Positions 8,817-62,066 of a DNA stretch of 64,000 nucleotides are shown piece by piece. Both the position numbers and the translations under genes were made by a program. Every line of letters starts with the position of its first letter. Positions within the stretch are counted from its first letter, which is position 1. The DNA lies in contig OZ023210.1 of NCBI GenBank assembly GCA_963995525.1, forward strand, positions 5,957,757 to 6,021,756. The letters run 5' to 3'. Source of the stretch: Escarpia spicata. Its lineage: Eukaryota; Annelida; Polychaeta; Sabellida; Siboglinidae. Under the pieces are notes generated by a model. It did not search any database. It was not told the DNA's origin and worked only from the letters and a program-made list of their open reading frames with translations.

Positions 8817-9005
8817 TGATGTGTTATGTTGTCTATATATTCAATAGTACGTTACTTATGTATAGAATCAACATATTGACGTAACGAGCCTTGTGAAATT
8901 GAAGACGAGGATTTATTCAAGATGGAGGATTTCTGTGTCGGCGCCACTGCGCATGCACCAAGTATGGACGTTGTATGGAGAGCCAAAATGGTATGAATCA
9001 CGACA
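8817..9005 (-). repeat. 3' LTR of the 8.8-13.2 kb element
   Basis: 189 bp, matching 12975-13163 except for A/G near 8988 and G/A at 9002. Its internal edge abuts the polypurine tract at 9006-9015. Its outer edge carries the ATCAT target duplication. Confidence 0.93.
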
Positions 9006-9277
9006 TCTCCTTTCGTTAAATAATAAACAAAAAGTCTTGTAACAATAACTATTAATTAGGGTTCATTCGATATGCCAGTGTGCGGTAATTATAGGTCCAA
9101 TCTATTTGGCGGCTTGATCATTCGACTGGATCGCCTTGCCTCAACAAGTCGCGTGTGGCGGCTGTCACTGGCGATTCGGGTTGCAGGATCGCACTGGGAT
9201 GTACAGCCACTTGATCATCTTCGACGCCGTCATCTACATCATCGTTCGAGGCTTGTTCTTTCCATGTTTCTTGTGTG

Positions 9278-9919
9278 TTACGCAAGTGTCGCCGATTGCG
9301 TCTGTATGCAGCGCCTTGTTCTGTCAGAATGTTGTACGATCTGGGCGTTCTCGCCTTGCTGGTGACCTTGGCCAGGTCCCACGTTTTCCCGAGTCGGATT
9401 CAGCATTCGCATAGTCTGTTGTGAGGATAGAGGTGCGAGTTCCGTCGCCGTGCGGTCATGGTATGCCTTATATCCATCTTGTCGTTGTTGCAGATATGCA
9501 TTTACATCTCCATTCGAGCGTGATGAGACTGTAGGTAGATTTGACTTGTATCGTCTACCATTAAGAAGTTCGCACGGAGATGGCAGGTTGTGGTCGATTG
9601 GGGTTGTCCTGAGGCACAACATCGCCAAATGAGGGTCACTGCCGCTTTCCTTCGCCTTTGTGAACAGTTTTTTGACTGTTTGAACTGTCCGTTCTATGAA
9701 CCCATTCGACTGTGGATACAATGGTGAGCTTGTGACGTGCTCAAACCCGTATCTCGCACTAAAGACCCGGAACTCTTCAGAGCTGTATTGCGTACCGTTG
9801 TCAGAAATCAGTCTTTCCGGAATTCCATGCTCGTCGAAGATTCCTTTAAGTTGATTGATGACAGTGTTAGAGCTGATGTTGCTCAGTTTTCGTACGATCG
9901 GGAACCCTGGAGAGTGCAT
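9278..9919 (-). pseudogene. Integrase, C-terminal half, fused out of frame to RNase H
   Basis: The 213-residue frame enters the integrase core just after where the first catalytic aspartate should be: SGFPIVRKLSNISSNTVI, then LISDNGTQYSSEEF (second catalytic Asp) and PQSNGFIERTVQTVKKLF (catalytic Glu). A short tail follows. The HHCC zinc-binding domain and the first Asp are missing. At about 9900-9915 the upstream RNase H frame (LADALSR) joins this one in a different frame, so an internal deletion removed the integrase N-terminus. The protein cannot integrate DNA. Confidence 0.85.
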
Positions 9920-12650
9920 CTGCTAGTTTGACATCACTACCAGGAACGTACTTGATGTTCACGTCGTACTGCTGTATGCGGAGTAGCATACGTGCCAACC
10001 TGGGCGGGGCAGCGATCAGATGTTTGCTGTAGATAGACTCCAGCGGTTTGTGGTCTGTGTGCACTTGCACGTGCCGTCCATAGACGTATTGGTGGAACCG
10101 CTCAAGTCCAAACACGATGCCCAGCATTTCGCGCTCAATGTTGGAGTAGCAACTTTCTGTTTCGGTGAGCGACTTGCTGGCGAATGCAATGGGGCCATTG
10201 TCTTGCAGCAGTGCAGCACCAAGTCCCCTCTGTGAAGCATCCACTTGAATGATGAGCGGCTTAGTACTGTCATAGTATCGGAGCACCTCACTGGAAGATA
10301 TAGTCTTCTTCACGTCAGAAAACGCAGCATCGTGTTCTGGTCCCCAGTCACAGGGAACGTCCGTCTTGCACAAATCTCTGTGTGGTGCCGACAGTGCAGC
10401 TAGATGTGGGGTAAATCTTCCCAGATAGTTCGCCAATCCGAGAAAGGTCTGTAGTTCCTTGACATCTGTCGGTGCTGTCATGTTGCATATCGCGGTCACC
10501 TTCTCTGGGTCTGGTTCGATGCCCTCTGCACCAATGATGTTTCCAAAGAACGGAATGCGTTTGCACCGGACGACCATCTTCTTCTCATTGAAACGTAAAC
10601 CGGTGGCACTTGCTCGTTCCAGTACTGCTGTCAGATTCGCATCGTGATCGCTGCCATCTGACTTGTAGCCCACAACGACGATGTCATCCGATATGCCGGT
10701 AACTCCGGGTATGTCGCTGAACGTTTCGTCAACCTTCTTTTGAAATACATCTTGGGCGCAATTCAGCCCGAATGGCAACCTCATGAATCTGTGTCGCCCG
10801 TAAGGTGTGTTGAAGGTTGTGTGGTAGGAGCTTTCTTCGTCCAGCTTGATGTTCCAGTACCCACTCCGGGCGTCGAGGATAGTGAAGAACTGTGCCCCAT
10901 TGAGCTTCGGGAGCACATCGTCGAGCGTTGGTGTGAAGTGGTGTGGTCTTTTTATTGCCTTGTTCAGGTCTTTTGGGTCCAAGCATAATCGAAGCTTTCC
11001 GTTTGGCTTGGTAACACATACACACGAGTTCACCCAGTCTGTTGGGCGATCAACTTTGGCTATGATGCCCAGTTGGATAAGTGTATCAAGTTCCTCTTTC
11101 AGGGATTCGCGTAGTGCTACTGGCACACGACGTGGAGAGTGCACTACTGGCGGCACAGTTGGGTCGAGTGTGACGTGATATTCCCCTTCGAAACACCCAA
11201 TTCCATCGAACACATCTGCGTAGTCGTTCAGTATTCGTGCTTTTGCCGCTTCATCCCCTTTCGGCCGAGTAGTGCAGGCGGGCACAGGTGCTGTGGTGTC
11301 TGTGTGTCGTTCCGCAGTAGGGCCGATGTTCATGGCGTAGTTTAATGTTACTAGCTTCAGAGCTCTGCATGTCGGAAGACCAATGATAGTAGGTCCACTT
11401 GATTTCACAACATGAAACGTGCTTACTACTGATTCGTCTCGAACTTGAAGCTTGCATGTGCCATAGTGTGTAACCGTATGTCATCCGTACGCAGTGATCC
11501 GCATGTTAGATGGATGCAGATTCGTGGGAATGCCATCTTGCGTTACGTTGCAGCGAGGAGACATTGTCTTGTAAGTGGTGAGAGGTATGACGTTTCCTTC
11601 GGCACCTGTGTCGAGCTTGCAAGTGAGCTGATTTATGCACTGCGGAGACTGAACTGTCAATTGCACTAGAGCCTGCGTACTTTCAGTGTTCCCAGCTTTC
11701 CCCAGTGTGTTTATTTCAAGCTTGTCGAAGTACAGTTCACTCTGGTTGTCACTGCCCTTCGTGTTTTCGGGGGTGTGTATGCCTTGCTTTTTTGCCATTG
11801 CCGGACGGGTCGGCCTTCGTGCTCTGGCGTTTTGGGCACTGCCAATGCACATCTTTATCCAATGGTTTGCCTTGCCACAGCCACGGCACGTAGACCCGTA
11901 TGCGGGACATTCTTCGAGGGCGTTTGTATAAAACCGCCCGCATTGTCTTCCACAATGACCACAGTGACTACTGTCGTACTGTTGTACTGTGCGCCCTGGG
12001 TTTTGCTTAGACCTCCCATCCTGTGTTGTGCTGTAGTTGGCTGCACTCTGCCATGGTTTGCGTTGTGCCTGTGGCCTACGGTTGCTCATTGCATGAATGT
12101 TCGATTCGGCTCTAAGGTTTTGTAGTTGCTGTTTTGTAGCTTCTTCCGTTATGGCTATGTCAATGGCTTCGTCTAATGATAATGTTTCGTCTCGTTGGAT
12201 GAGCTTTGACAGTACACGCTCCGAGTTAGTGCCAAATATGAGAGTGTCCAGCATGTGTTCATTGGTATCTGCATATTGGCATTCTCGTGCCAAAATGCGT
12301 ACTGTTTTCATAAATGCATCAACACTTTCCCCATTTTCTTGTTTGATTGATCTCAATTTGAATCTAGCAATTCTGAAGTTGCTTTTTGGGGCCACATATT
12401 TTTCGAACCGGTCCCAATACACCGATAGTGTGTTTGATTCGGTGTCAGATAGGTCCCATGTGCTAGCAATTTCAATGCCTTCCTCCCCAGACCATAGAAG
12501 TAGGTATTTCACTTTCACAGTTTCAGTTTTTTCAACAAGAGGACCTTCAAACATGAGTTGGCACATGGTCTTGAATTTTTGTAATGCCTGTGGTACATCT
12601 GTCGACGCCCAGTCCATTGTTGGTGCGGACAATCCAGCCATTTCCGCCAT
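9867..12650 (-). pseudogene. Gag-Pol polyprotein (gag, protease, RT, RNase H) with one TGA stop
   Basis: Gag runs from the ATG at 12650: capsid-like helices, then a zinc knuckle CRGCGKANHWIKMC (CX2CX4HX4C). The aspartic protease motif DTGAE follows near 11560. A single TGA at 11481-11483 interrupts the frame. The next 24 codons and the long frame 11408-9867 continue in the same phase, so gag and pol form one reading frame. RT motifs: LDARSGYW, RLPFGLNCAQDVF and ISDDIVV (catalytic Asp pair). RNase H motifs: QVDASQRGLGAAL, IEREMLG and HTDHKPLE. The frame ends shortly after LADALSR, at the integrase deletion. The TGA may be a nonsense mutation or a programmed readthrough site; a mutation is the simpler view given the deletion. 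Confidence 0.85.
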
Positions 12651-12958
12651 GATGTCGGTACGTTGTATGCTTAGCCGTAGGCTTGAATCGTATCTTTATT
12701 TATTTTAATGTTCAATGACAATGACCATATTATGGTCTCATAAAGACTGACATTCCTCCTACCTTGTCTGCTGGCGTTGGCACATAGGGTTTACGTTACC
12801 GCACGACGCTGGTGATTGCATTCGGATTTCAATGACAATGCTTATACATTGTCTTCGCTTCTGTCAGTTTGGCGTTCGGTCTTGACTCTTGTCGACTTGA
12901 GTTGAGTCGCTGCGCTACCATTGCGACGTCAATCTAAATTATGTAGGCCTTGTGTTTC

Positions 12959-12974
12959 GTCCGCGCTAACACCA
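12959..12974 (-). promoter_or_regulatory. Candidate tRNA primer-binding site
   Basis: On the minus strand TGGTGTTAGCGCGGAC starts directly after the 5' LTR. TGG at this position, pairing with a tRNA CCA end, is the expected minus-strand primer site. I do not assign the tRNA species. Confidence 0.7.
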
Positions 12975-13163
12975 TGATGTGTTATGTTGTCTATATATTC
13001 AATAGTACGTTACTTATGTATAGAATCAACATATTGACGTAACGAGCCTTGTGAAATTGAAGACGAGGATTTATTCAAGATGGAGGATTTCTGTGTCGGC
13101 GCCACTGCGCATGCACCAAGTATGGACGTTGTATGGAGAGCCAAAGTGGTATGAATCACAACA
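12975..13163 (-). repeat. 5' LTR of the 8.8-13.2 kb element
   Basis: 189 bp direct repeat of 8817-9005. It begins at 13163 on the minus strand with TGTTGTGATTC and ends CATCA. ATCAT target duplication at 13164-13168. Confidence 0.93.
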
Positions 13164-14829
13164 ATCATCATCCTTTTCTTTCAGTACTTTGCCAATGTAG
13201 TAAACCTTACGCTTGTTGTTTTTCGCATCACAAAACTCAACTAGGACATAGCCGTCGCCCTCTCTCGGTTCTGCTTCAAGCTATTCGTTGAGTTCAATAC
13301 GAAGAAGACTATTTTCACTAGACTCGTCATCAAACTATGTTGATTTACATGAATCATCTTGTGAATTGTTTTCAGTTTCATTACGAAACAATGGTGTACG
13401 AGGTTTGGCATTCCTTTGACTGGATGCCTTTCTTTTTGATCCTTTGTGTTTGTTTTCCTGACAGGTATAATTTCAATTCAATTTCCTCTGGTGTAACAGT
13501 AGCTGTTATAGCTTGTCCCTTTTGGTTGATATGTTCTTGTGTGGTTCCTCTCTTCAGCTTTTGGGTACCCTCTGAAGTCTTGGGGACTCATGGAGTGTTT
13601 GTTTGTTGTACTTATAGCTCCATCTTCTGTAAAGAATGGTGTGGTTTGCTTGTTCATATCGGCGAAGCTGATGTGGAAGGCTTAGAATGACAAGATTCTG
13701 CTGGTGTCAAAAGCATAGAGTCGGGAGTTGCTGCTGGTGTCGAATGCATAGAGACAGGAGCTGCTGGTGTCGAAGGCATAGAGACAGGAGCTGCTGGCGT
13801 CGAAGGCATAGATGCGGGAGCTGCTGATGTGGAAAGTGTAGGCGCTGCTCACAAAGTCGGTATTAGTGAAGACATCAGAATTGTACGGAAATATTCCTGT
13901 CTTTCGAAATCCAACAGAGATAATGCTTGGTGTCTTTGCCAGCTGATGGAGTTTCCCAACAAACCCAGCTAACTCATAGATTGATAAGTCTTTCCAGGAT
14001 TATACATCATCCAGTTATCAACAGCCTGCCCGTAGTACGTTTCGAAAGGTTTAAATGCAGCAACATCCAGTGGCTGAAACCTATGGCTGGAGTGGGGAGG
14101 AATGGTGAGAATTGTTACACCACTGGCCTTTGCAAGGTCAATGACTTCTATTGATATGTTACTCTCGTGATTGTCGCATATGAGTAGAGTTGGGTTTGCT
14201 TTGGAGCTCTTGGTGTGATGAATGAAGTGTCGCATCATTTGAACAAAGTTTTTGTACGTCTTGTGTGCTAATCCGTTTGATCCATGTGGTGCACCATTCA
14301 GCATAGGTCGCTTGTAATTTACTTGAGGAAACCCCACAACAGGGGGTAGAGTATTTCCCGTCACACTAACGATATAGCATGTCGTCACAAGGGTACCCAT
14401 TTCTGCACTGGTACATTTACTAACTTGTTTGGCCCCTTTTTCAGCGACAACCTTAGGTAAATTATGCACGGTCTTGGTGCAGGTTTCATGAAGATAGTAA
14501 ATTCTGGTACCATCAGCAAACTGTGGTTCCATTTCTACTATCTTCTTCAAATTATCATAGAATGCAGCACAGTTGTGCTTGTTAAATGAGTTAGCTCGAT
14601 CGTGAGAGGCTACAGCCTTCTGGTGTTCGAATGCTCAGTGACTAATTTGCGGCACTCTGTGGTTGTTAGACCATAAAAGTTTGTTAAAACCTTGGCACTT
14701 GTTACAATGTATTCAGCCAACTGTGTTTCCTGTTCGTTAGTAAAAAATCTGTCTTGACTTATATTTGGAACACAAAATCTGTCTTGACTTATATTTGGGT
14801 ATTTCTTCACCAGGATGTTTCTTCACGTA
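13164..14829 (-). pseudogene. Pogo/Tigger-like DDE transposase, N-terminal and core part
   Basis: A likely splice acceptor at about 14830 opens YVKKHPGEE, then a CENP-B-type helix-turn-helix region (TNEQETQLAEYIVTSAK, FYGLTTTECRKL). A direct duplication of about 30 bp at 14743-14800 shifts the frame. The DDE core at 14550-13969 shows IYYLHETCTKTVH, where the family has an Asp before Glu-Thr, so the first catalytic residue appears to be His. It also shows LLICDNHESNIS (second Asp) and RFQPLDVAAFKPFE (third Asp). C-terminal text (GFRKTGIFPYN, later VYYIGKVLKEKDDD) runs to the ATCAT site at 13168. A piece between the HTH and the core is missing. Members cut and paste DNA; this copy is dead. Confidence 0.75.
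13699..13850 (-). repeat. 30-bp minisatellite inside the transposase tail
   Basis: Units 13711-13740, 13741-13770, 13771-13800 and 13801-13830 repeat a text like GGCATAGAGACAGGAGCTGC. On the minus strand one frame gives a Pro/Ala/Ser-rich decapeptide repeat, typical of a disordered linker. The frame differs from that of the preceding core. Confidence 0.8.
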
Positions 14830-43145: not shown

Positions 43146-43636
43146 TATATAAGCATAAGTTATACCGGTACCATAGTGTTTTCGTTGTCTTGGTTTTGCC
43201 AACTTTTGGTGTAGAAGTAACAATGTCAATGGCTACGCACAGCCGGATACCCTTGTACTTAAGTTATTGGCATAGTTAAACTACACTACAGAGTCGAAAC
43301 AGTGACAAAATGATTGAACTGGTCTGGAGACAGTAGAGTCAAAGAATCCTTACCAGCTACTGAAGTCTGTCTGAAGACAAAGTCTGAACTGAATCCGGTT
43401 ACTGGGTTAGGCTAGCTTTAGCCTTGCCCTTAGGCTTAGTAAGTTAGTTAGGCTAGCGCTATTCATACGATTCTTGCAACACCTCCTGTTTCTAATTTGG
43501 TCTTGGTAAGTCCCAGAATGAATCATTTGCAGCGTCATCGTTTAATTATATAATCTAATGATTAATTTAACCACCGCATAGCCATAATGATGGTTATAAA
43601 TAAAGCATTACCATTACCTAAGTCCTAACAAGCAGC
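43146..43636. other. Non-coding stretch
   Basis: A small GGCTAGC/TTAGGCTTAG-rich patch at 43405-43460; otherwise nothing recognised. It ends in the CAGC target duplication of the next LTR element (43633-43636). Confidence 0.5.
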
Positions 43637-43881
43637 TATTGTGCGCGGCACTTACTTGGGCAGGCACAATGGTGTACCCCACAGCGGAGGCCGAAGGCCG
43701 ACGGGAGCGTCTCCTCGATGAGGGGCTGTGCTTCTCGGCGGCGGCGGCAATACGGACCCTGGCTATTGTGTAGCACGGGTATTTATAGGGTGTATGTGTG
43801 GGGGGTGTATTGTTAGGGTGTAATGCGGTTGTGCGTACTTATCTTGGGTGTGACCTAATTACAGTGCTGCTCCGCACTACA
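43637..43881 (-). repeat. 3' LTR of the TatD element
   Basis: 245 bp identical to 50357-50601. On the minus strand it runs TGTAGTGCGG to GCGCACAATA. It contains a GTATTTATAGGG/ACACCC-rich middle that could hold a TATA-like site (ATAAATAC on the minus strand). Confidence 0.96.
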
Positions 43882-43895
43882 TTCCTCCCCATCAT
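43882..43895 (-). promoter_or_regulatory. Polypurine tract
   Basis: Minus-strand ATGATGGGGAGGAA directly before the 3' LTR start, the expected plus-strand DNA primer site of an LTR retrotransposon. Confidence 0.75.
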
Positions 43896-44377
43896 AAAAG
43901 GAACGGGATGTATTGCAGGAAATATATCCGTCATTTTATGTAATTATCGAGTAATTACAATCAAAACATTTGATTATTACCCAAGACCGTGCATACACCC
44001 TACACAAAGACAATTCACTCAATGTGACAATTAAACAAATATAGCTTGATAATTATCTAAAATATATTTTTAAAGGGTATTTCCGTATTATTACTTTAAC
44101 TAAACCCGAACACCAACATATTTTTTTTTTAATACAGTTGATTAAACCCACACCCAATATGCCAATAGTTACATAATATAACAAAACGACTTTATCGAAA
44201 ATGACTTTTCACTTCCAATAAAGAAATAGGTATGTACACAAAATTTATCTACACAAATTTATCTACACGAGAAGATATGTATGTTCTAGAACCCGGACAC
44301 CGACAAGCGTCCTAAGCTACTAGATTGTGTCTGTGCATGTATGTGTATGCGTATAGTGTGCATTGCCCATTTAGATG

Positions 44378-47300
44378 TTACGCCATGGTATACAGGAGGC
44401 GTGCATCGAGGCCGTAAAATGTACACGCATTCAGGCGGCTCGCTTCCACCACCATATCAGTAGTTAACCCCTTCAACGAGGCCACCCTCTCTGCTACGGT
44501 AATTATGTTCCATGGGTGGTTCGGGCCAGTTGTTCCTGGTGGTGGAAGATATGGCGCATCTGACTCCAGCATGATCTTATCGAGCTTTAGACTACACACC
44601 GCCTCCTCTTCCTCCTTCACTCCTCCACATCCTACTCTCAGCAGGGTGCCAGACAGACCGAATTTCGCTTCGGGGAATGCCCGCAACCATTCTGTGATAT
44701 CCCCTTTACTCCCGCAAAAGGAGTGGACATGCACTTTATGCGTCTTTGGGAGGACTTCCGTCATTATGTTCAGGCAATCCTCCAAGCACTGGTTTGCATT
44801 ATCGTTGCTGCATGGCCGTAGATGGATCACGACGGGTTTGGCATGCCTGACAGCCAATTTAAGCTGTGGCACCAACATCTGCCGTTGGTTCTGGCGCTCC
44901 TTTGATCTCTGGTGTCGATGATAATCGAGGCCAATTTCTCCCACACCAACGCATTTGGGATGGCGGAGTAATATATTCATGGTGCTTAGGTGTCTGTCAT
45001 GGTGGCTGTTGGTGGATGCGACGTGTGGATGAAGGCCGATTGTGGCGTATATGCCATCATGACTATCGATGTGTGGTTGTAGCATGTGCCAGTGCTCAGG
45101 GAACACGTAATTCCCCACAACGTAATGGAGATTCCAGGCAGGTTTTACCTTGTCAATCAGGGTTGACAGACCGTCAACCCGATACCTCTTGAAAAGAATA
45201 TCTAGGTGACAGTGGCTATCTACCATTTGTCCGAGTGCCGGCAGGCACCTCAGATGAACGGGATCGCCACTGTAATCGCATTCTACGTCTGACGATTTTA
45301 TTTGTTGTCGTATTTCGAATGGTAGGTGTTGTAGAATGCAGGCCATCACCTTCCAGTGCAACAGACACGCCACCGAGGCCGGTGGTGTGATGGTCAACGA
45401 ATCGATGTTACTCAGATTTAGGCGATTACCAGCTTCCCACATTCTCATCACGATCCGTTGTTCGAACGAGAGGGTACAGTCACCTTGATCCCAAGGATAC
45501 CATTCTCGTTGTGCGGCCACATGGTTTCTAACTAACTCCAGGAATAATTCAACTTCCGTTTTGTTACTCGGGACTGGCCAATTTAACACAGTTTCGATTT
45601 TACTTTGTGTAATGCCAACACCTTCACAACCTACTTTTCGTCCCAAAAATTCTACCTCTCTTTGAAAAAGTACACATTTTCGTGGTTTCAATTTCATTTT
45701 ATATGTACGAAACCGATCTAAAGTCTGTTGTAGATTGTCGATATGGTCTTGAAATTCCTTTCCCAAAACGATTACATCATCCAAATAGGCCAACACGTTC
45801 TTCCAAACCATACCCTTCAATATCCGATTCATTGCTCTCTGGTAAGTTGCTGGTGCATTACATAATCCTTGTGCCATTCTAACGTGTTCAAAGAGGCCAT
45901 ATCTGGTGATAAATGCTGTCTTGTGGCGATCTTCTGGTTCAACGTTTATTTGCCAATATCCGCTAGCCATATCTAGTGTGCTAAAGTATTGATTACCCTC
46001 CAAATTATCTAAGCATTCTTCAATTAAGGGTATTGGGAATGCATCCTTCTGGGTTACAGAGTTTAGTTTCCTAAAATCTACACAATAGCGTAGTCCTCCA
46101 CACCGCTTACGCACGATAACTGGTGCGGCAGCCCATTCAGACTCCGATGGCTGTATAATTCCCTGTTCCAGCATGGATTGTAACAGAGTCTCCTCTTCCT
46201 TTTGAAAACCCAGCGGGGTTCGCCTCATTCGCATCTTTACAGGAGCCGCATCACCAGTATGAATACGGTGTGTAGTGGCTGTGTAGTTACCCAAGTCTAA
46301 GTCGTGCTTTGCAAATACATCCTCATAGTCCAATAATAATGTCTTCAGAACTTCAGACTCTGATTCATCGAGTTGTACAATTGATCTTTGGTATAATTCT
46401 TGTACATGTGGAGCTGTTTTCCAACAGTCATCTTCCTCTAGCTCATGTTTAGCTGTTATACTTGACAAAGGTGTTCCGATACTAGGGCTTGATGTTAGCC
46501 GGCTCTGGCATAGAGCCTGACTTGGCATTAGCTCAGTGTCGAGCTTTGTTAGTTCTGTTTCATCATTGGGCATATCCAATAAACAATCAGTTATTTCTGT
46601 TGACAGCCGGCTCTGACATAGCGCCTGATTGTCTACAGAATTCTCTGAGTTTGGTGGAACGGAATGAGAAACTGATAGCGTAACTGGTTGATCGGTTACC
46701 ATATCTGTTTTACTTCCCTCTTCGCTATGTACATCAATATCCTGATTTGGGACCATATTTGACGATATCCCCTCAGACTGACCCGAAATTTCAGTGGCAC
46801 ACGCCAATAACTCCTTAGCGGGTATCGTGACTGGTTTATCTGTGAGATTCATGACACATATGTTTATGATGTTACCCCCGTTTACCACAGAATCTGGGAT
46901 CCATACTTGTTTATGTCTGTGGACCGGTTCGATGGCAAAATCGCCAGTTGTTGCATTATCCATGTGACATTTAAGCATTCGTCCACTGTTTGGTGGTATA
47001 GTTGTTTTTCTACATAGTTTTACTCGACAGATAACAACTTCTTCATTGGACAGATTCCGCTTCATAGTTGCAGGTATTACCTCGTCGCCTATCATGACTA
47101 TATTGGCATTAATGTCTAAAACTGCCCCCACCGATTTCAGGAAGTCTAACCCCACGATGAATGGGTCTGTTGTATCCATTACCAACATATCTACTGGATA
47201 GTGATTCTTCCCTACTTGAATGGTAAGTTGGGAGAGTAATTTCCCTTCTGTCTGGATGTGCCCTACACCTCGTACACCAATACTCGAATTTGACTGAACA

Positions 47301-47575
47301 GGAATGTTAAGATTCTTAAGGAGTTCCTCACTGATTATTGTTGCTTGAGCGGCCGTATCGACCACTGCTGATATTCTCTTACCCTTAATGGTAATCGGAA
47401 TGGTCATAGTCCAACCCATGGTCTCTGGAAGTTTAGCCTCATATACTGTGACATTTGCCTGTGTATCTGTCCTTATATTTGTGTTATTTTTATATTCCGT
47501 TCCATTCTCCAAATGATTTACAGAAGTACTCACAGGAGTGATTAACTCAGAATCACTGTCAAAACAAATAAGCAT
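44378..47575 (-). CDS. Pol: aspartic protease, reverse transcriptase, TatD deoxyribonuclease
   Basis: 1065 open codons. Residues 55-165: retropepsin-like domain with VVDTAAQATIIS (catalytic DTA, Asp73) and IVGLDFLKSVGAVLD. Residues 260-380: acidic linker with a motif ALCQSRL repeated at 318-324 and 354-360. Residues 420-680: Ty3-type RT with CVDFRKLNSVT, STLDMASGYWQI (Asp535), HVRMAQGLCNAPATYQ and AYLDDVIV (Asp599, Asp600), ending VELFLEL where RNase H would begin. Residues 681-783: Trp/Cys-containing spacer, unrecognised. Residues 784-1056: TatD family with DSHCHLD (His788, His790), IGLHPH, VGEIGLDYH (Glu880), VVIHLRP (His918), VHVHSFCGS and LESDAPYL (Asp1006), so the metal site is complete. 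RNase H and integrase are absent. The frame is open upstream of its Met into the gag end. Confidence 0.93.
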   Translation of the reverse strand: MLICFDSDSELITPVSTSVNHLENGTEYKNNTNIRTDTQANVTVYEAKLPETMGWTMTIPITIKGKRISAVVDTAAQATIISEELLKNLNIPVQSNSSIGVRGVGHIQTEGKLLSQLTIQVGKNHYPVDMLVMDTTDPFIVGLDFLKSVGAVLDINANIVMIGDEVIPATMKRNLSNEEVVICRVKLCRKTTIPPNSGRMLKCHMDNATTGDFAIEPVHRHKQVWIPDSVVNGGNIINICVMNLTDKPVTIPAKELLACATEISGQSEGISSNMVPNQDIDVHSEEGSKTDMVTDQPVTLSVSHSVPPNSENSVDNQALCQSRLSTEITDCLLDMPNDETELTKLDTELMPSQALCQSRLTSSPSIGTPLSSITAKHELEEDDCWKTAPHVQELYQRSIVQLDESESEVLKTLLLDYEDVFAKHDLDLGNYTATTHRIHTGDAAPVKMRMRRTPLGFQKEEETLLQSMLEQGIIQPSESEWAAAPVIVRKRCGGLRYCVDFRKLNSVTQKDAFPIPLIEECLDNLEGNQYFSTLDMASGYWQINVEPEDRHKTAFITRYGLFEHVRMAQGLCNAPATYQRAMNRILKGMVWKNVLAYLDDVIVLGKEFQDHIDNLQQTLDRFRTYKMKLKPRKCVLFQREVEFLGRKVGCEGVGITQSKIETVLNWPVPSNKTEVELFLELVRNHVAAQREWYPWDQGDCTLSFEQRIVMRMWEAGNRLNLSNIDSLTITPPASVACLLHWKVMACILQHLPFEIRQQIKSSDVECDYSGDPVHLRCLPALGQMVDSHCHLDILFKRYRVDGLSTLIDKVKPAWNLHYVVGNYVFPEHWHMLQPHIDSHDGIYATIGLHPHVASTNSHHDRHLSTMNILLRHPKCVGVGEIGLDYHRHQRSKERQNQRQMLVPQLKLAVRHAKPVVIHLRPCSNDNANQCLEDCLNIMTEVLPKTHKVHVHSFCGSKGDITEWLRAFPEAKFGLSGTLLRVGCGGVKEEEEAVCSLKLDKIMLESDAPYLPPPGTTGPNHPWNIITVAERVASLKGLTTDMVVEASRLNACTFYGLDARLLYTMA

Positions 47576-47646
47576 TTCAGTATTATCTTTGTCATGATTC
47601 AGGCCTTGTTTCCCTGGGGATAGACTCTGGCCATCTAGTCTAACCC

Positions 47647-49659
47647 TTATTCTTTTAGTGGCATGCTGTCATTGCGGGCATTCCCCGAAGCACTTGACGG
47701 GGACCTACTCCTATTCTGAGTGCAACTGCGACTCATGTGACCTGTTTCACCGCAATTGTAACATCTGCCATTGAAGGACGGTGATTGTCCACGGCCGGGT
47801 GACTGCATGCGATCCGGTGATTGGTATCTATTGGGAGATCGACCATATCTCCTGAATTGCGGTTGACTGTTCATGGGTGGCGTCAGTCGCTCCCGATCTA
47901 GACTTTTCTCCACTTGGATCAGTCTCCTCAATATTTCATCTATCCTACTGTCCTCTTTGTCTTTGTTATTATTGCCAGAACCGACTGGTTCCTGACACTT
48001 ATCCTCTATCGGTCGTTTTGTATGGCGACCATCATTCTCAGGTGATGCATATGTGGTGCGTACCAGCACTTCGTCCTCGAATGCTACCTGCCTCGCTGAA
48101 ACTGACAGTGTTCTACCTAAGACAGCCTTCTGGTTGCTGATGCTACTCTTCATCTCCTTCAAGGCTTTCCGAACTGACCTTGGCTGTCTCTCGCTGACTG
48201 CTAAAGCTGCCCCCTTCTCCCTGGCACCTTTGAGGAACAGCTCAGTGGCCCATTTATCTATTGCTCTGTCTCCTGCTCCTTTGTATCCCAGAGAGACGGC
48301 ATGTTGTACTCGATCCGCATAATCTTCCAGGGATTCGTTGGCTTCCTGCTTGATATCATGGAGATTCCGTCGCACTACGCTTGAGTCTTCTTTCATACCG
48401 AATCTGTTCTTCAAGCATTTCATGAGCCGATGGTAATCATGGCGATCTTTGCGAGAGCGTGTCCGTACATAATTTATGGCTTTGTCACGCATACATTCCT
48501 TGAGTCTCCGTAGTTTCTGATGACTACCCCAGTGATAGTGTTTAGCAGTACCATTGAACAGGTAAAGAAAGGCATCCCATTTTGTAGAGTCTCCCGAGAA
48601 CATAGGTAGTTTAGGTCCGGGAGGGCTATTTCGTTGACGATGCCGTGTGTCCTTCCCCCGTCGATCCCTTTCCATTGATTCGTCAGACGATCCTGAGTTT
48701 GAGTTCAGAGATTCAGAAGACGATGATGATGACATTGAAGACGAGTCTTCGTCTGAATATCGGTGATGTGATTTGCCGTCTTTCTTCTTCTTTCTTCTTC
48801 GACCATGGGCTACGTCATGTGTGTGATGACTCTCATTTTTTTCATGTGTGTGATGTCCATCGGTTTGAGGTGTGGTGTCTATTCTTCCCATTGGCTCGCG
48901 TTTCACACCGACTGGAAGATTTGTGTTGTTAGTAGGTTGAAGTGAGGTATCCTTCCTGCGTACTTCTTGTCCTAACAACCGCGAGGGACCGGAACTGTAT
49001 ATGCCATCCTTTGGATGCGCATCAAGGAGAGGTTTGTCATCAAAAGGATGACCCATTGATTTGGAAGAGCTCTTATACATTTCCCATCTCATTTCATCAC
49101 CTATTTCCTGTGACCTGCGTCTATTCATTGTGTGATCCCATTCTTCCATCTCCTTTCCCATTCTTTCTTCCAGTTCTCTTCTCTTTACTTTCCTCATGAA
49201 TTCATACTCGTCAATACCAACCCTGACCCTGTTTGATCTCTCTCTTTCATATTCTTTGATTCTGCAATCCCTCTCATCAAGTTGCGCATGATATTGTGCT
49301 TCCATCCTTTCCAGTTTATCTTTTAACATCTCTACCTCGTTGCTACTAGAATCTATCGAACTAGCTCCCCCGGTCTGGGGTTTCTCTAAACTGATTCGTC
49401 CTGTTTCCAGCAAGTTATCCCAAAACGTTGTAGTAGCGCCCGTGGCTGTCGCTAAGTCAGCAATTTCTATTTTATCTTTCTTCCTGAGATTCAGTATTTT
49501 GGTAGCCTTTGTGGTGGATACCCCTGCTACTTCCATAACCTGTTCTTTAGTGCATGTATATAAGTTGATTGTTGACGTCATGTTGACGTATAAATGTAAG
49601 TGTAAATGCCAAACTGTGTATACAAAATAATGCCTACTGTTTAACAACGTTAGTTGCAC
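47647..49659 (-). CDS. Gag with helix-hairpin-helix-like N-terminus and zinc knuckle
   Basis: Up to 670 residues from the first Met. Met27 (49581) is a likelier start, because the text before it is hydrophobic filler and the text after it begins a domain. Residues 31-80 (INLYTCTKEQVMEVAGVST and following) resemble the ComEA-type helix-hairpin-helix fold, unusual for a Gag. Residues 105-200 are a charged coiled coil. Residues 270-350 are a low-complexity His/Lys/Ser/Asp region. Residues 350-500 are a capsid-like domain (PKLPMFSGDSTKWDAFLYLF, ESLEDYADRV). Residues 633-646 are the zinc knuckle CYNCGETGHMSRSC, flanked by Arg/Ser-rich text that should bind RNA. The stop TAA at 47647 precedes the pol Met by about 70 bases. 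Confidence 0.9.
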   Translation of the reverse strand: MQLTLLNSRHYFVYTVWHLHLHLYVNMTSTINLYTCTKEQVMEVAGVSTTKATKILNLRKKDKIEIADLATATGATTTFWDNLLETGRISLEKPQTGGASSIDSSSNEVEMLKDKLERMEAQYHAQLDERDCRIKEYERERSNRVRVGIDEYEFMRKVKRRELEERMGKEMEEWDHTMNRRRSQEIGDEMRWEMYKSSSKSMGHPFDDKPLLDAHPKDGIYSSGPSRLLGQEVRRKDTSLQPTNNTNLPVGVKREPMGRIDTTPQTDGHHTHEKNESHHTHDVAHGRRRKKKKDGKSHHRYSDEDSSSMSSSSSSESLNSNSGSSDESMERDRRGKDTRHRQRNSPPGPKLPMFSGDSTKWDAFLYLFNGTAKHYHWGSHQKLRRLKECMRDKAINYVRTRSRKDRHDYHRLMKCLKNRFGMKEDSSVVRRNLHDIKQEANESLEDYADRVQHAVSLGYKGAGDRAIDKWATELFLKGAREKGAALAVSERQPRSVRKALKEMKSSISNQKAVLGRTLSVSARQVAFEDEVLVRTTYASPENDGRHTKRPIEDKCQEPVGSGNNNKDKEDSRIDEILRRLIQVEKSLDRERLTPPMNSQPQFRRYGRSPNRYQSPDRMQSPGRGQSPSFNGRCYNCGETGHMSRSCTQNRSRSPSSASGNARNDSMPLKE

Positions 49660-50340
49660 TATTTATTCAAAAATTAGGTAATTCAAATCAAACTGAACAG
49701 TGCAGCTCAGATTTTTTTTAAGAAAATCAATATAATTGCACAATTACCAACACGTTTTAGTGAGAACAGTAAACAGTATCACGCGATAGATACATTACAA
49801 TTACGTTGGCGATAATACCCAATTAGTAAGTTCAGGAAGTAAACCAAAAATATAGCTTGATTTATGATTAACAACAATGTCATAAACACGATAAACTCTT
49901 AACTAAACTTAAGAAAGAATTCAATTATAAAGCTATCCGTGGGTCATGTAAACACCACGGCGTGATCAAAGGGTTAAACCCAGTTCGAGTCAGCTAGCAG
50001 TCGCGTAGCAACCGACGGCGACGCGCGACGCTGGTTGTATGCTGCCAGCGACCACGCCCGTATACTGGTTGTCCCGACGTCAAATTGTAATTGCAGACCT
50101 TTCAAATAAGCGTTTGAATACTGCTATATGATAATTAGCAGAACTTATCTCACGTATAATTACTTCATACTATGCGTAGACAGAACCGGCAGATTCCTAT
50201 CATACGCACAGGCAAATTGGCGCGTAAATGTTGAAACAATTAACGCTTGAAAACCGACAGGTTTCTCCTGGTTAATTGCGCGTAGAATATAAATTGTTTA
50301 ACATGGAACTATAACGCAGATTCGCTAGCAGAAATATACC
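49660..50340 (-). other. Leader between the primer-binding site and gag
   Basis: About 680 bp of untranslated leader, probably holding packaging signals. A GC-rich segment at 49960-50070 contains CGCG-rich text. No frame is supported. Confidence 0.6.
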
Positions 50341-50355
50341 CTGCTCGCAGCGCCA
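50341..50355 (-). promoter_or_regulatory. tRNA primer-binding site
   Basis: Minus-strand TGGCGCTGCGAGCAG, one base after the 5' LTR, complementary to a tRNA 3' end finishing CGCCA. The tRNA species is not assigned. Confidence 0.75.
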
Positions 50356-50356
50356 A

Positions 50357-50601
50357 TATTGTGCGCGGCACTTACTTGGGCAGGCACAATGGTGTACCCC
50401 ACAGCGGAGGCCGAAGGCCGACGGGAGCGTCTCCTCGATGAGGGGCTGTGCTTCTCGGCGGCGGCGGCAATACGGACCCTGGCTATTGTGTAGCACGGGT
50501 ATTTATAGGGTGTATGTGTGGGGGGTGTATTGTTAGGGTGTAATGCGGTTGTGCGTACTTATCTTGGGTGTGACCTAATTACAGTGCTGCTCCGCACTAC
50601 A
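50357..50601 (-). repeat. 5' LTR of the TatD element
   Basis: Identical to 43637-43881. The outer edge is followed on the plus strand by CAGC (50602-50605), matching 43633-43636. Confidence 0.96.
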
Positions 50602-50605
50602 CAGC

Positions 50606-52923: not shown

Positions 52924-62066
<9,143 letters not shown>

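Follow-up and report, generated by a model that had tools for sequence, protein, structure and literature searches.

LTR-mediated retroposition in metazoans was reportedly described by Tan et al. 2016. PMC5408686 and PMC8232201 present it as a mechanism of LTR elements that occurs in animals, and section 2.2 of PMC5408686 describes template switching between the RNA of an LTR element and an mRNA at sites of microsimilarity. According to PMC4299795, the capture of a host mRNA usually costs an element internal domains and its autonomy. The same paper treats crocodilian ERVs that captured the mRNA of KIT-ligand or nectin3: nectin3 took the place of the envelope gene and is found in six insertions and in a second alligator species too, and the KIT-ligand ERV lost no ERV domain. 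In maize, the LTR element Bs1 has taken up segments of cellular genes, described in PMC13317346 as pieces of three genes, none of which is a full-length ORF.

We analyzed a 64-kb stretch of Escarpia spicata DNA (the window), in which an LTR element carries a reverse transcriptase (RT) and a TatD domain in a single pol frame. As in metazoan LTR-mediated retroposition, what appears to be cellular mRNA sequence lies between LTRs and the element ends are kept, and the partners are apparently alike over a short stretch at the putative switch point; unlike those cases, the window copy fuses the capture in frame to a protease and most of an RT. It resembles Bs1 in having taken up cellular gene sequence, but this comes from one gene and includes a complete catalytic domain. 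Compared with the nectin3 ERV, the window element is seen as one copy, and unlike the KIT-ligand ERV, it has lost domains of its own. Within the open-licence literature, we found no paper combining TatD, retrotransposon, integrase and RNase H; a search of the same literature with TatD, retrotransposon and reverse transcriptase gave no paper on such a fusion, judged by titles and the beginnings of abstracts.

Architecture of the element

The element has a total length of 6,965 bp and lies on the minus strand of the window, as do all of its features given below, with gag and pol inside one LTR pair. The 5' LTR (50357–50601) and the 3' LTR (43637–43881) are 245 bp each and show no differences; they run from TGTAG to CAATA, ending in TG..TA and not TG..CA, and carry TATAAA at LTR position 95. 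A target site duplication, GCTG, is located on the 5' side at 50602–50605, where the flank reads ...ATTGCTG ahead of TGTAG, and on the 3' side at 43633–43636. A putative primer-binding site, TTGGCGCTGCGAGCAGGG (50339–50356), adjoins the 5' LTR, and a polypurine tract, GGGGAGGAA (43882–43890), adjoins the 3' LTR, both assigned by position. Given this LTR pair with its polypurine tract, primer-binding-like site and 4-bp duplication, the chimera was most likely integrated as a single unit. Apart from the two LTRs, no second copy of the element exists within the 64-kb window, and a comparison of the 5' and 3' untranslated regions revealed nothing beyond matches of 10–15 bases.

The gag ORF (47647–49659), identified from Pfam and the ORF list, contains a CCHC zinc knuckle together with HHH-like and Retrotrans_gag-like matches, both under the Pfam cut-off; its true start is likely the ATG at 49581. 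The pol ORF (44378–47575) has 1065 codons. Its ATG is out of frame with gag. A further 31 codons of the pol frame are open upstream of this ATG (47575–47668) and overlap the end of gag; hence, gag and pol may be joined by a frameshift. Residues 1–676 of pol (45548–47575) comprise an aspartyl protease (57–154) and an RT (RVT_1, 489–646, E 8.7e-30) with YLDD at 597, and the best matches of the RT among solved structures are 4ol8 (E 2.2e-43) and the Ty3-G Gag-Pol 7q5b (E 1.2e-42). The LTR pair, primer-binding-like site, polypurine tract, short target duplication, gag and Ty3-type protease–RT are features of Ty3 elements (Metaviridae). No match of pol to RNase H, the integrase zinc domain or rve appears in the Pfam listing up to E 1, in which weak matches above about E 0.1 are mostly filtered.

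Behind the stop of the TatD part lies a 3' region (43882–44377), which presumably consists of the 3' UTR of the donor followed by that of the element. The GC content drops sharply near 44300 within this region, and a run of ten A residues (44130–44121) is the sole candidate for a poly(A) relic, an unconvincing one.

The window holds further mobile elements. A second, different Ty3-type element (8817–13163, minus strand) has 189-bp LTRs (99%) and carries a gag-like ORF, an RT–RNase H ORF and an integrase piece, all as separate ORFs. Two transposase pieces also lie on the minus strand: one at 55578–56219 (DDE_Tnp_1_7, E 4.6e-48), which we take to be PiggyBac-like, and one at 13969–14550 (DDE_1, E 1.3e-10), presumably Pogo/Tigger-like.

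Parent, donor and swap point

Two separate proteins match the two halves of the pol frame. P0022 (1445 aa, on a 7,030-base contig) is identical to pol at 675 of residues 1–676, the sole change being D403N. Past residue 676, it departs from pol and runs on into RNase H (711–839), and it also has an integrase zinc domain, an rve core and an integrase C-terminal domain. Judged by sequence, P0022 is a near-identical parent-type protein of the element; it possesses the RNase H and integrase that an autonomous element requires, both of which are missing from the window copy. The break against P0022 further suggests that the RT of the window copy is without the end of its thumb.

The captured TatD gene segment corresponds to pol residues 678–1065 plus the stop (44378–45544), a run of 388 uninterrupted codons. 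From Phe678 onward, P0024 (281 aa, on a 1,521-base contig) is identical to it at 144 of 146 residues. Upstream of the matching Phe, P0024 has 133 residues that are absent from the window copy, with a Cys/His pattern that we read as possibly zinc-finger-like; Pfam names none. Two mismatches (W-L and N-D) lie near the end of the match, the last two residues diverge, and the protein ends after the first 39 residues of the TatD domain; Pfam gives it no TatD match of its own. Given the mismatches and early stop, P0024 could be a paralogue, or a copy that has been damaged, and it probably represents the donor gene or a close copy of it. Over the following 200 captured residues, P0023 comes closest, with 221 of 315 identical (70%) over segment residues 33–346 and a departure thereafter; the last 42 captured residues match distant relatives only. 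Since P0024 covers 146 residues and the identity to P0023 beyond them is 70%, the donor is well identified for the first part and inferred for the rest.

The junction (45539–45547) consists of codon 677 and a Phe-Leu common to the parent, the chimera and the donor (45544–45539). It reads TEVE-S-FLGFV in the parent, TEVE-L-FLELV in the chimera and NL-P-FLELV in the donor. With Phe-Leu common to both partners, the switch sits at or beside it; because parent and donor are known as proteins alone, the shared residues suggest, at one remove, a shared stretch of DNA at the junction. Codon 677 (TTA, Leu; 45545–45547) encodes neither the Ser of the parent nor the Pro of the donor, which may reflect allelic differences or an alteration that arose where the templates were switched. 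The third-position GC content is 0.36 before the swap and 0.55 after it.

The TatD domain and the survey of relatives

The Pfam TatD_DNase profile aligns in its entirety (1–253 of 253, E 3.2e-46) with pol residues 785–1055 (44411–45223). His788, His790, Glu880, His918, His951 and Asp1006, which we take to be the metal-binding residues, are all present, matching the HxH, E, H, H, D pattern, and align with their counterparts in solved TatD enzymes, human TATDN3 included. Five of the six are invariant in an alignment of 35 rows; for the first His, conservation is at least 90%. A structure model of the TatD part, built from the same alignment, has a mean pLDDT of 86.7, with most ten-residue blocks above 90, and TatD enzymes lead its matches among solved structures, namely 6l25_A (TM by target 0.87) and 2y1h_A (0.83). 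In the model, the captured part is structurally sound and is a predicted TatD family nuclease. The initial annotation had described a 1065-codon frame with protease, Ty3-type RT and a full-length TatD domain that keeps its metal-site residues, flanked by identical LTRs and devoid of RNase H and integrase; our analysis bears out this description, and adds to it the minus strand, the gag ORF, the GCTG duplication and the change of identity at codon 677.

In a tree of 35 hand-chosen rows, in which several deep forks are weak and TATDN1 and TATDN3 rows were left out, the captured domain pairs with P0023 (100/97) and falls outside the TATDN2 clade (100/98), which comprises seven rows from animals, of which four bear the name TATDN2 or TATDN2-like. 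The oyster protein P0028 is named TATDN2 and likewise falls outside the clade, and thus the name by itself does not decide membership. The captured segment aligns with TATDN2-named or zinc-finger-like TatD proteins such as P0001, P0002 and P0028, in which an upstream region is followed by TatD; in contrast to these, the chimera left the Cys/His-rich N-terminal part behind and has the RT in its place. P0001, P0002, P0003, P0004, P0028, P0030 and P0031, one of them from oyster, form a very divergent TatD set with a Cys/His-rich N-terminal part and long branches outside the TATDN2 clade. A figure in PMC6962438 places a TATDN2 gene next to transposon-like genes in the Hox cluster of the giant squid.

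The search with the pol protein gave 982 significant matches, 120 of which were listed; among the latter, the RNase H of the parent matched in 115, its integrase in 91 and neither in 5. The TatD part matched none of these 120 relatives. Conversely, no RT was found in 136 TatD relatives, made up of 21 from one search (P0022 left out) and 115 additional ones from another, which gave 419 matches and listed 120 of them. The matches listed in the protein collection, a clustered database that could hide a copy, include no RT–TatD fusion protein, and scans of viral and prokaryote contigs found no relatives. We also scanned the six pol relatives for which the listing showed no RNase H or integrase: five end no more than about 80 residues after the RT, P0154 has an integrase-type SH3 match behind an incomplete RNase H, and none of the six has a new domain in this region. 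An established lineage with the RT–TatD order, one prospect raised by the initial annotation, was set aside as the leading idea on these counts (0/120 and 0/136). Relatives with RNase H and integrase but no TatD, which the initial annotation had named as an outcome that would refute it, are what the protein collection showed among the matches listed. Two Ty3-type pol relatives, P0138 and P0239, have a Macro domain ahead of the protease and keep RNase H and integrase; this accessory enzyme domain is perhaps a more interesting capture than TatD.

Origin of the chimera

The element is very probably a chimera of recent origin, a non-autonomous copy of an LTR retrotransposon of the Ty3 type (Metaviridae) that arose when the RT switched templates to a TatD mRNA. 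As minus-strand synthesis begins at the 3' end of the element, the simplest path is a switch in the TatD 3' UTR and a return in pol. A cellular TatD mRNA would have been co-packaged with element RNA that was being copied in a virus-like particle; the RT would have jumped to the 3' UTR of this mRNA, proceeded along it in the direction of its 5' end and then returned to the element RNA in pol, at the short stretch coding for Phe-Leu. Such a path would have cost the element its RNase H, its integrase and the end of the RT thumb, and 388 TatD codons would have come to follow the RT in frame; a junction falls in frame by chance in one case out of three. The second junction would be expected within the 3' region between the TatD stop and the 3' LTR. 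Integrase from intact parent elements would then have inserted the copy with its 4-bp duplication. With a shortened RT and no integrase, the copy probably needed the proteins of intact parents to integrate and would need them again for any further move. We infer template switching, the order of the switches, a helper in trans and the lack of a selected role for the fusion. The event is young, and it looks like a fresh one-off chimera, a known kind of event, rather than an established lineage.

A different view is that the element founds, or belongs to, a lineage that has come to use a TATDN2-like nuclease for one step of its replication, for example RNA removal from RNA:DNA hybrids in place of RNase H, with integrase supplied in trans. 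The TatD frame is open and in frame with the RT, its six site residues are kept and its fold is well modeled, and the idea is made less far-fetched by TATDN2, a relative in the same family that acts on RNA in R-loops; however, any fresh capture would show an open frame, and the grouping with P0023 outside the TATDN2 clade means that the TATDN2 activity is not directly transferable. Furthermore, no second copy or relative of the same order was met among the proteins reached, the RT seems to be without its thumb end, and selection has had little time, since a parent whose RNase H and integrase are normal still differs at just one of 676 residues. Such a lineage is extremely unlikely, and it is scarcely credible that an RT–TatD polyprotein is made whose TatD part works on RNA:DNA hybrids instead of the lost RNase H; if true, it would mark the beginning of a new kind of LTR element, one needing only integrase in trans. 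The initial annotation had offered a choice between capture of TatD with integrase in trans and use of TatD in a replication step: the existence of the near-identical P0022 and P0024 speaks for the former, and the absence of the combination from the listed pol relatives and the TatD relatives speaks against the latter.

Two further explanations would dispense with template switching. A false assembly join between a normal element and a TatD gene would agree with the single copy seen, with the fusion protein not being found in the collection and with near-identical partners that both exist separately. It is nevertheless highly unlikely, as two false joins, one on either side of the TatD part, would be required within one LTR pair, the identical LTRs and the matching duplication would have to survive them, and the 5' join would have to land in frame at the Phe-Leu common to both partners; the same points weaken the suspicion of a join at the RT–TatD boundary raised by the initial annotation. 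It is very unlikely, too, that the TatD segment entered an already integrated element at the DNA level, via ectopic recombination or gene conversion and not through RT: identical LTRs and a simple duplication are the product of fresh integration of an already chimeric cDNA, and a genomic piece might well contain introns, yet the captured codons are uninterrupted.

We favor a new example of an already known kind of event, probably template switching, and not a new replication enzyme. As a host-gene capture by an LTR retrotransposon, it is unusually clean: about 99% protein identity makes both the parent and the beginning of the donor recognizable, the 5' swap point can be placed within a few codons, and the reading frame continues across the fusion. 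The requirement for RNase H and integrase is not overturned by it; the RT–TatD chimera is an example of how retrotransposons could gain enzymes.
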